A DNA stretch of 64,000 nucleotides, taken from Pseudarthrobacter sp. L1SW. Its GTDB lineage: Bacteria; Actinomycetota; Actinomycetes; Actinomycetales; Micrococcaceae. The notes under the pieces are model-generated. The model saw only the letters and a list, made by a program, of their open reading frames with translations, searched no databases and was not told where the DNA came from. The first letter of the stretch is position 1. Each line of letters opens with the position of its first letter. Both the position numbers and the translations under genes were made by a program. This document shows positions 43,140 to 46,411 of the stretch, piece by piece. Where the stretch lies: contig NZ_CP078079.1 in the NCBI RefSeq assembly GCF_020809045.1, forward strand, positions 3,348,001 through 3,412,000, given 5' to 3'.

Positions 43140-43952
43140 ATGGGCAAGTACTACTCCCCCACCGGCGGCCTGCCGCCGCAGACGCACCTGACCACCGAGC
43201 GGGCCATCGTGACCGAGGCGTACACGGTGATCCCGAAGGGCGTGATGACGGACATCGTGACGTCCAACCTGCCGGGCTTTTCGAACACCCGCTCCTGGAT
43301 CATCGCCCGCCCCATCTCGGGCTTCGCCACCACGTTCTCGCAGTTGATCGTGGAGATCGGCCCGGGCGGCGGCGCCCCCAGGGCAGAGTTCGAGGCCGGC
43401 GTCGAAGGCGTTATCTTCGTGACCCGCGGCAAGGTCAACCTCACGCTCGACGGCGAACTGCACCGGCTGGAGGAGGGCGGCTACGCCTACCTTGCGGCAG
43501 GGTCCAACTGGGGCCTGGAAAACGTCTCGGCTGACATCGTGTCCTTCCACTGGATCCGCAAGGCCTACGAGCGCCTCGAAGGGTACGAGGCCAAGTCCTT
43601 CGTCACCAGCGACGCCGAAGTGGAGCCGCGCGAGATGCCGGACACCAACGGCGCCTGGAAGACCACCCGCTTTGCGGACCCCAACGACCTGGCACACGAC
43701 ATGCACGTCAACATCGTTACGTTCCAGCCCGGCGGCGTGATCCCGTTCCCGGAAACCCATGTGATGGAGCACGGCCTGTACGTCCTTGAGGGCAAGGCCA
43801 TGTACCTGCTGAACAACGACTGGGTGGAGGTGGAGGCCGGCGACTTTATGTGGCTGCGCGCGTTCTGCCCCCAGGCCTGCTACGCCGGGGGCCCGGGCCA
43901 GTTCCGCTACCTGCTGTACAAGGACGTGAACCGCCAGGTGCGCCTCACCTAA
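43140..43952 (+). CDS. (S)-ureidoglycine aminohydrolase (bicupin)
   Basis: This 270-residue protein with two cupin domains begins MGKYYSPTGGLPPQTHL. The C-terminal cupin carries the metal-site pattern PFPETHVMEHGLYVLEGKAMYLLNNDWVEV in overlapping segments, as in plant UGLYAH and E. coli AllE. It converts (S)-ureidoglycine to ureidoglycolate and ammonia. It is the last gene of the malic enzyme-malate synthase-DUF6986 operon and ends at a strong hairpin. Its presence means allantoate is degraded through ureidoglycine in this organism. Confidence 0.92.
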   Translation: MGKYYSPTGGLPPQTHLTTERAIVTEAYTVIPKGVMTDIVTSNLPGFSNTRSWIIARPISGFATTFSQLIVEIGPGGGAPRAEFEAGVEGVIFVTRGKVNLTLDGELHRLEEGGYAYLAAGSNWGLENVSADIVSFHWIRKAYERLEGYEAKSFVTSDAEVEPREMPDTNGAWKTTRFADPNDLAHDMHVNIVTFQPGGVIPFPETHVMEHGLYVLEGKAMYLLNNDWVEVEAGDFMWLRAFCPQACYAGGPGQFRYLLYKDVNRQVRLT

Positions 43953-43965
43953 TCCCCCGCCCGTC

Positions 43966-44035
43966 CCCCCAACTAGGTAGCGCCAAGTGTCGTTTTGAGG
44001 CTCCAAAACGACACTTAGCGCTACCTAGTTGGGGG
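43966..44035. terminator. Very long hairpin (32-bp arms), bidirectional terminator-like element
   Basis: The left arm 43966-43997 and right arm 44004-44035 pair over 32 positions with one mismatch, around a six-base loop. The arms contain AACTAGGTAGCGC and AAGTGTCGTTTTG. The plus-strand copy is followed by AAAAT and the minus-strand copy begins from the same A-run, giving a U-tract in that direction. It ends the ureide operon and lies 12 bases before the next ATG. Confidence 0.85.
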
Positions 44036-44047
44036 AAAATTGGTGGC

Positions 44048-45199
44048 ATGGGCACACGCCGGGGTGGCACGTGGACGCGGGTCACGGCTGGCCTGTGCGC
44101 AATCCTGCTGGCGGCGTCCATGACCGCCTGCACCTCGGAGCCGCGACCTCCGGAGCCTGAGCCGGACAAGCCTGCCGCGTTCGCAATCCTGGAAGACTTC
44201 AGTGCCCGGATGCTGGCGGAAGGCGCTCCCGCGGTCCTGGTCGCCGTCCGCAGCCGGGGCGCCACCTGGACGCACGCTGCCGGCGTCCGGAACCTGGAAT
44301 CCGGCGAGCCGGCAACGGTTTCAGATCCTGTCCGCATAGGCGGCATCACGGAATCCTTCATCGCGGTCTCGGTGATGAAGCTGGCGGCGGAGGGCAAGCT
44401 TGAGCTGGACGCCGAGGTAAACCGCTATCTCCCCGAGTTCGGCACCGTCCTCCATCCTCCCGGCCCTGTGACTGTCCGCCAGCTCCTGACGCACGAATCC
44501 GCGCTTCCCGACTTTTCCGTTCCCCTGCTGGCGTCCGGGAATTGGGCGGAGACCATGAACCGGCCGCTCAGCCTCGAACAGCAGCTGGCCCTGGCCGCCA
44601 CCGTGCCGTGGAACGCCCGGCTGGCACGGATCTTTGACTATTCCCGCTCGAACTATGCAGCGCTTGCCCTCATTGTTGAGCGGCTCCGCGGCGAGGGGAT
44701 CGGGCAGGTCCTCGCCGAGGACACGGCCGCACCCCTGGGCCTGGCGAAGACCCGGCTTGGCGGCCCGACGCCGGCGGGCATGGTCCACGGCTATGTCACC
44801 TTTGAAGGCAGGCGCACCGACGTGAGCATGCCGGCATGGCAGGCGGAGTCCCCCTCAAGCGGCGCCCTGTCCACTGTGGAGGAAGTGAACAGTTTCTACG
44901 CCGCCCTGCTGGAGGGCAGGCTACTCCCACCGGACAGCGTGACCGCCATGAAGGGCGGCTACTCGCAGTACTACGGTTTTGCCCTGCGGCGCTGGAACAA
45001 CACCTGCAACAACCGCTTCTACTATGGCCTTCCCGGTGACACCGACGGCTACGGCATGGTCGCCATGACCAGCGAGGACGGCCGCAGCCAACTTGCGCTG
45101 GCCGTGGCATACCCTCCCGCACCGCCCACCCTCGAACTCAACCCACTGATCTTTGAGATGCAGGACGTCGCACAGGAGGCCCTCAACACGCTGTGCTGA
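44048..45199 (+). CDS. Serine beta-lactamase-like lipoprotein, catalytic residues missing
   Basis: This 383-residue protein has a lipoprotein-type signal with Cys28 (SMTAC). The body has the class C beta-lactamase/S12 fold: VRIGGITESF, LLTHESALPDF, then YSRSNYAALALIVERL. The usual nucleophile box S-x-x-K reads G99-I-T-E102, so both Ser and Lys are replaced. The third box (HTG) reads LPGDTDGYG. It is therefore probably a non-catalytic binding or sensing protein at the cell surface. The start is the ATG just after the long hairpin. Confidence 0.8.
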   Translation: MGTRRGGTWTRVTAGLCAILLAASMTACTSEPRPPEPEPDKPAAFAILEDFSARMLAEGAPAVLVAVRSRGATWTHAAGVRNLESGEPATVSDPVRIGGITESFIAVSVMKLAAEGKLELDAEVNRYLPEFGTVLHPPGPVTVRQLLTHESALPDFSVPLLASGNWAETMNRPLSLEQQLALAATVPWNARLARIFDYSRSNYAALALIVERLRGEGIGQVLAEDTAAPLGLAKTRLGGPTPAGMVHGYVTFEGRRTDVSMPAWQAESPSSGALSTVEEVNSFYAALLEGRLLPPDSVTAMKGGYSQYYGFALRRWNNTCNNRFYYGLPGDTDGYGMVAMTSEDGRSQLALAVAYPPAPPTLELNPLIFEMQDVAQEALNTLC

Positions 45200-45229
45200 G
45201 GGCCTCCCGCTGGAAGCTTTCCGGGGACA

Positions 45230-46411
45230 TCAGGCTCCGGGATTCAGGACCACCTTGATGCAGCCGTCCTCTTTCTTCTGGAACTTCTCGTACAGGGCCG
45301 GCGCGCCCTCCAGGCCCGAGCGGTGGGTGACCAGGTCCATCACACCCAGCGGATCGGCGTCGTCCTCCACCAGCGGCAGGATGTCATCAGTCCAGCGCCG
45401 GACGTTGCACTGCCCCATCCGCACCTGGATCTGCTTGTCGAACATGGTCAGCAGGGGCATCGGGCTGGCCTGGCCGCCATACACGCCGCTCAGGGACAGG
45501 GTCCCGCCGCGCCGTACGGCGTCGATGGATGTGTGGAGCGCAGCGAGTTTGTCCAGGCCCGCGGTCTCCATCGCTTTCTGGGCCAGCTTGTCCGGCAGGA
45601 GGCCCAGCGCCTGGTGGGCGAAGCCGGCCACCGGGGAACCATGGGCTTCCATTCCGACGGCGTCAATCACCGCGTCCGCGCCCCTTCCGGCCGTCCTCTC
45701 CCGCAGTTCGTCCGCCACGCCCTTGGTGTAATCAAGGGTTTCCACCCCGTGCCGGGCGGCCATCTCCCGACGCTCCGGGACCGGATCCACGCCGATGACC
45801 CGCAGGCCCCGCTGGACGCCGATCCGGCTGGCGAACTGTCCCACGGGGCCCAGTCCGAACACCGCCAGGGTGCCTCCCGGCCGGACGTCCGCGTATTCCA
45901 CCCCCTGCCAGGCTGTGGGCAGAATGTCCGAGAGGAAAAGGTAGCGCTCATCCGGCAGTTCCGTTCCCACCTTCACTGGCCCGTAGTCCGCGTGCGGTAC
46001 GCGCAGGTATTCTGCCTGGCCGCCGGGAACCGAACCGTAAAGCTCCGAGAAGCCGAAGAGCGCGGCGCCGGAACCCTTGCTCTTGACCTGCGTGGTTTCA
46101 CACTGCGACTGCAGCCCCTGGCTGCACATAAAGCAGTGGCCGCAGGAGATGTTGAAGGGAACCACCACCCTGTCGCCCTTGCGGAGGTTGGTGACGGCGC
46201 TTCCCACCTCTTCCACGATGCCCATCGGTTCATGGCCGATCACGTCACCCTTGTGCATGTATGCGCCCAGCACCTCGTACAGGTGCAGGTCGGATCCGCA
46301 GATGGCCGTAGAGGTGATCCGCACGATGGCGTCCGTCGGCTCCTGGATCACGGGGTCCGGTACTTCTTCCACGCTTACCGAGCGTTTTCCTTGCCATGTC
46401 AGTGCTTTCAC
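45230..46411 (-). CDS. Zinc-dependent alcohol dehydrogenase (FDH-like MDR family)
   Basis: This 393-residue medium-chain dehydrogenase has catalytic zinc ligands in ICGSDLH and GHEPMGIVEEVG. A structural-zinc-like cluster CGHCFMCSQGLQSQC and the nucleotide-binding GLGPVGQFAS are present. The length and insertions resemble glutathione-independent formaldehyde dehydrogenase-like proteins; the actual substrate is not shown. The gene is monocistronic, convergent with the beta-lactamase-like gene. Confidence 0.9.
   Translation of the reverse strand: MKALTWQGKRSVSVEEVPDPVIQEPTDAIVRITSTAICGSDLHLYEVLGAYMHKGDVIGHEPMGIVEEVGSAVTNLRKGDRVVVPFNISCGHCFMCSQGLQSQCETTQVKSKGSGAALFGFSELYGSVPGGQAEYLRVPHADYGPVKVGTELPDERYLFLSDILPTAWQGVEYADVRPGGTLAVFGLGPVGQFASRIGVQRGLRVIGVDPVPERREMAARHGVETLDYTKGVADELRERTAGRGADAVIDAVGMEAHGSPVAGFAHQALGLLPDKLAQKAMETAGLDKLAALHTSIDAVRRGGTLSLSGVYGGQASPMPLLTMFDKQIQVRMGQCNVRRWTDDILPLVEDDADPLGVMDLVTHRSGLEGAPALYEKFQKKEDGCIKVVLNPGA

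Follow-up and report, generated by a model that had tools for sequence, protein, structure and literature searches.

Within the 64,000-nucleotide stretch of Pseudarthrobacter sp. L1SW DNA analyzed here (the window), a gene on the forward strand at 44048–45199 encodes a 383-residue putative lipoprotein that its Pfam and R61 matches, an AlphaFold2 model and dN/dS mark as a pseudoenzyme of the S12/PF00144 fold. The open reading frame, its phase and the residue numbering are right, the motif VRIGGITESF placing glycine at 99 and glutamate at 102. The protein consists of a signal peptide running to the putative lipidation cysteine C28 (residues 1–28, 44048–44131, forward strand), a proline-rich linker and a single S12/PF00144 domain. 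C28 is invariant in all 28 aligned rows. The lipobox reads MTAC in the window protein and LPGC, SAGC or TAGC among orthologs; its methionine at −3, where other rows carry L, S, T or A, departs from the consensus. Judged from their open reading frames, the upstream genes of this slot probably encode malic enzyme, a malate synthase-like protein, an HpcH-like protein and a ureidoglycine-type cupin, and the downstream genes a HAD and a GH15-like protein. No cell-wall gene was seen among the conserved slot neighbors, which look metabolic, and a scan of 43800–45400 for sigma-70-type promoters and terminators found neither.

The intergenic gap that separates the cupin gene from the ATG is filled by a hairpin lying outside the protein (43966–44035, forward strand), a near-perfect 70-nt structure with a folding energy of −59.9 kcal/mol (z −11.6). 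Its arm has 57 + 58 matches in the genome at up to three mismatches, against 0 + 0 for the control, and the hairpin is a dispersed palindromic repeat. In the same gap of other species (orthologs L008–L031), hairpins occur that are clearly different in sequence, for example L019/L020 vs L025/L028 vs L022/L026, and five such stretches folded with z of −7.0 to −10.8; the gap is just 31–34 bases long and free of a hairpin in L017, L018, L029, L030 and L031. Either several palindrome families share one spot, or the sequence turns over while the hairpin itself persists.

Pfam search of the 383-residue protein returned PF00144 at 116.8 bits against a cut-off of 27, and the nearest solved relative by sequence was the Streptomyces R61 DD-peptidase (E 7e-33). 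The AlphaFold2 model, built from 44 aligned sequences, reached a pLDDT of 88.9 and a pTM of 0.85. Its best structural match was again the R61 DD-peptidase (3pte; Z 40.0, rmsd 2.7, 331 aligned residues, 26% identity), which outranked D-peptidases, D-amino acid amidase, LACTB, DltE and class C β-lactamases. The initial annotation had stated that the fold-defining segments remain, and these results bear this out, putting the predicted S12/class C PBP fold of the protein beyond doubt.

According to PMC4570186, the R61-type group uses a Ser/Tyr/His/Lys tetrad carried in the boxes SXXK, YXN and HXG. All three boxes are altered in the window protein (all coordinates on the forward strand): the former SxxK box is G99-I-T-E102 (44342–44353), the YxN box Y198-S-R200 (44639–44647) and the HxG box L328-P-G-D331 (45029–45040). 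In the HMMER alignment, G99 and E102 stand opposite the serine and lysine of the R61 segment GSVTKSF, and L328-P-G opposite H-T-G, so that only Tyr198 is left of the tetrad, together with G330 of HxG. The replacements of S-x-x-K and of the HTG box proposed in the initial annotation thus hold, the former also through the reading-frame numbering, while the YxN alteration is a third change that it had overlooked. Residue by residue, Ser62 of R61 becomes G99, Lys65 E102, the YxN asparagine R200, His298 L328, Thr299 proline and Thr301 D331. The two proteins share the fold, the YxN tyrosine, the HxG glycine, the position of Arg285 and a cysteine ahead of the HxG strand; the predicted lipid anchor belongs to the window protein. 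R61 itself is a DD-carboxypeptidase/transpeptidase of family S12, an AmpH-type class C PBP. SxxK is kept in each of the five other PF00144 places of the same genome.

An intact S-x-x-K elsewhere in the protein, named in the initial annotation as the observation that would speak against it, was sought across the whole sequence, and S108-V-M-K111 alone was found. We rejected it as a relocated active site. It lies further along the same predicted helix (residues 100–114 of the AlphaFold2 model), it also occurs in relatives with a true SxxK, such as L032 and L033, and ortholog L015 has a proline at 108.

A genus-level search (E ≤ 1e-20) gave matches in 143 of 206 genomes, with well over a hundred places listed. 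An ortholog of at least 72% identity is present in 26 of the 206 genomes, and 25 of these are readable through the SxxK region. All 25 readable orthologs carry E102, R200, R314, L328, P329, G330 and D331. Because E102, R200 and L328 are universal in this set, chance or sequencing error is excluded as their source. The G/E conservation raised for checking in the initial annotation therefore stands for the glutamate and only in part for the glycine, since position 99 is G in 22 rows, T in two and S in one. The most conserved stretch in the clade by mean column identity is the block 311–331 (44978–45040, forward strand), which surrounds the former HxG strand and reaches 0.99 over 311–320 and 1.00 over 321–330 in the 25 rows. 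The conservation table excludes L034, which has a frame break, and the broken copy L150, and L034 was not scored at 99/102.

Of 26 clade members, 25 show no interruption of the reading frame across the protein; in the draft-genome copy L034 (G040) the frame is lost before residue 106. NG86 counting put dN/dS at 0.13–0.29 over 14 clade pairs, whose dS reached at most 0.86. For the SxxK-intact sisters L032 and L033 the ratio was 0.16, suggesting that constraint on the clade gene did not plainly relax after the boxes were lost. The catalytic residues are gone, yet the protein is conserved and its dN/dS low, which argues for selection for something else. Together with the fold and the three altered boxes, this supports the reading of the initial annotation, a pseudoenzyme of β-lactamase fold on a lipoprotein, and makes a strong case for a maintained pseudoenzyme and not for decay.

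Outside the clade, the closest relatives (L032, L033 and L035, at about 61% identity) all keep the serine and the lysine, and L032 and L033 retain YxN and HxG too; position 200 is N, N and S in the three. They occupy the same gene slot as the window clade. When the catalytic columns were left out of the tree, support was 100/100 both for the window clade and for that clade plus its three sisters. Since SxxK-intact sisters share the slot at this support, the loss is best placed within the group, with the gene staying put; the phylogeny thus dates the loss of SxxK inside the genus. At nine sites (44, 102, 200, 238, 302, 308, 312, 314 and 328) the clade is invariant for a residue that none of the three sisters has. 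Three of these sites fall within the 11 catalytic-box residues (p 0.0014 in a hypergeometric test made post hoc); a further pair, 312 and 314, lies on the strand preceding the HxG strand.

We then considered the wider family, using 82 rows that comprise most places with more than about 45% identity plus some less similar ones, a chosen and not a random sample. To these, 20 rows picked mostly for an adjoining cupin gene were added, giving a 102-row tree; L001 was too distant for any tree, repeat fetches (L005, L007, L037–L039, L081–L090, L118–L137) were not counted, and L101–L117, which came from a family-level search, were not added. Serine and lysine are both kept in 18 of the 101 scored relatives of this chosen sample, and 17 of these 18 SxxK-intact rows have the HxG histidine. 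The remaining 99/102 pairs are GE (24), GQ (15), GK (13), DM (5), SE, RE and GT (4 each), DQ (3), TE (2) and nine types found once each. In the lost rows outside the clade, the scaffold stays, with 62 columns, C320 and C383 among them, reaching at least 90%, while positions 99/102 wander. In 55 rows the cupin gene was shown to adjoin; SxxK is kept in six of these and lost in 49.

Counted as maximal SxxK-free clades of the 102-row tree, under a model that forbids regain, there were about nine losses, unchanged after branches under 95% support were collapsed, and six when slot rows alone were kept; free parsimony gave eight changes overall and five in the slot. These loss counts label 57 rows as syntenic, with slot placement shown for 55 (not L012 and L057). 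The exact number is soft, given many weak deep nodes and long branches. The tree nevertheless separates the loss in the window clade from those in the L041/L051 group, because both groups are well supported and hold SxxK-intact members. A paralogous clade of ten (L043–L045, L047–L050, L052, L053 and L060) keeps YxN and HxG and reads GxxK in nine members and GxxM in one, so that mostly the serine alone is replaced; it forms a natural single-residue dead series.

A family-level search (E ≤ 1e-30) matched 55 of 395 genomes, from three of 32 genera. A contig scan gave four loci, of which three are orthologs, in Pseudarthrobacter sp. NamE2, P. sp. GA104 and Arthrobacter nitrophenolicus SJCon, and the fourth is a distant Levilactobacillus match. 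In another lineage, the slot copy L150 (G092) is broken in its last third, which suggests that the gene is not needed everywhere.

Position 314 (44987–44989, forward strand) corresponds to Arg285 of R61. It is arginine in 25 of 25 clade rows and in just two of the 18 SxxK-intact rows. Arg285 precedes the HxG histidine of R61 by 13 residues and R314 precedes L328 by 14, a difference of one inserted residue. In R61, Arg285 reads the carboxylate of the C-terminal D-Ala (PMC4570186). D331 sits at the place of R61 Thr301, where Asp is also found in 12 of the 18 SxxK-intact rows, and this exchange should disfavor a free carboxylate beside R314.

From these features, we propose that the lipid-anchored pseudoenzyme would descend from an R61-type S12 DD-peptidase/D-esterase whose catalytic cleft may have been rebuilt as a binding site. 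Here E102 would face R200 in place of the Lys/Asn pair, and R314 would stand where R61 has Arg285. Facing outward from the membrane, the protein would hold, without cutting it, a cell-wall ligand that ends in a D-amino acid (a stem peptide or a D-alanylated polymer) and could act as a receptor, a buffer or a scaffold for a partner. As a whole, this account of an R61-derived, non-cutting cell-wall binder with a rebuilt cleft is our best explanation, and we judge it evenly balanced between right and wrong. Its parts differ in strength. The protein is very probably non-catalytic, and a predicted binding function is somewhat more probably than not still seated in the old cleft. A cell-wall D-Ala terminus as the putative ligand is a tentative assignment: with R314 and the kept tyrosine and glycine, non-cutting recognition of such a terminus is the most economical guess, but the neighboring genes point to purine/glyoxylate metabolism and not to the cell wall, which counts against a wall ligand.

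The pairing of E102 with R200 in a salt bridge is a putative compensatory charge swap. In the raw table of this type of covariation, rows keeping the lysine keep or lose the asparagine in 21 and 6 cases, and rows lacking the lysine in 9 and 45. Restricted to supported branches, the K/N comparison comprised four independent pairs (median p 0.5), which did not confirm the swap as covariation over the wider tree; S/K and K/H pairs gave no clear signal either.

The role envisaged in the initial annotation, a surface sensor or a protein that binds peptidoglycan or β-lactams, fared unevenly. R314 at the Arg285 place fits a wall ligand, whereas the protein has no signaling domain and no evident partner gene; a putative sensor or binding role is plausible. 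Covalent, acylating penicillin binding would be very unlikely without the serine. By the same token, a BlaR-like covalent β-lactam sensor, to which the fold alone would lend itself, is barely credible, as there is no acylation nucleophile, no transmembrane signaling domain within the 383 residues and no evident β-lactamase or regulator pair adjoining.

The main rival to the binder reading is a protein–protein scaffold or allosteric subunit that pairs with an active S12 paralog or wall enzyme and uses the cleft as its contact surface. The five SxxK-bearing PF00144 places of the genome are in keeping with it, the conserved block 311–331 could be an interface, and MipB, a dead Pseudomonas relative, works with a partner (PMC10936184); no partner gene is evidently linked, however, the neighbors being metabolic genes conserved across the clade, and we regard this role as doubtful. 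An enzyme acting by another mechanism, for example with E102 as base plus water or with an E102/D331 metal site, would explain the invariance of both residues in 25 of 25 rows. It is highly improbable, as none of serine, lysine and histidine is left, position 99 varies, D331 is also found in SxxK-intact rows, and position 102 is Q, K, E, T, M, N, R or I in other SxxK-less lineages, leaving no common new catalytic set. Repeated loss of the boxes in the family, the broken copy L150 and the frame break in the draft-genome copy L034 would suit a functionless, decaying former enzyme gene; given the open frames in 25 of 26 clade members and the dN/dS of 0.13–0.29 (dS up to 0.86), which rules out a pseudogene, the chance of this is very slight. 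Returning to the non-cutting binder, we think it unlikely that in Arthrobacter-type actinobacteria the lipoprotein of this single chromosomal slot became a pseudoenzyme repeatedly, with different residue pairs, because its job was never catalysis, the Pseudarthrobacter form being a non-cutting D-Ala receptor by way of R314.

Among known systems other than R61, DltE and FmtA share the fold of the model (Z 33.0 and 31.3) at 19% and 16% identity. Both are surface-located S12-fold D-Ala esterases of teichoic acids in which the catalytic serine and lysine are kept. The alkaline D-peptidase of Bacillus cereus is close by sequence (E 1.5e-25) and by fold (Z 38.2); it keeps the Ser/Tyr/His/Lys tetrad and has a tyrosine at the Arg285 place (PMC4570186). 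The same fold was also found in chain Sa of the mycobacteriophage Bxb1 tail tip (9d93_Sa; Z 32.3, 319 aligned residues, 16% identity), and it is conceivable that the tails of phages and the dead lipoproteins of their hosts, sharing this fold, might meet the same wall ligand.

In kind, the window protein resembles MipB (PA1797) of Pseudomonas aeruginosa, a β-lactamase-fold lipoprotein that lacks SXXK and whose YXN and KTG boxes are degenerate, a functional envelope protein that takes part with MipA in polymyxin sensing (PMC10936184). Both have this fold with the three boxes lost or degenerate, and the window protein is a putative lipoprotein too. MipB carries two additional C-terminal β-barrel domains and has MipA as its partner, whereas the window protein carries the S12 fold up to its last residue, 383, and belongs to a Gram-positive organism without an outer membrane. 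The window protein is therefore MipB-like in kind, yet not a MipB, because the two C-terminal domains are missing. Searches of the open-license PMC literature turned up no account of a dead lipoprotein of the S12 family from Arthrobacter or its relatives, and MipB was the one true precedent found there for a functional pseudoenzyme of this fold.

Few descriptions exist of pseudoenzymes with the penicillin-target fold, and a genus-wide family with intact and dead orthologs in one slot offers a direct way to ask what role such a protein plays once it no longer catalyzes. For soil actinobacteria, proteins labeled as "β-lactamase family protein" should have their SxxK checked before they are counted as resistance or wall enzymes. 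In the lineage of this soil bacterium, relatives keep the replaced version intact under selection, so that the surface protein probably binds something and does not cut it.
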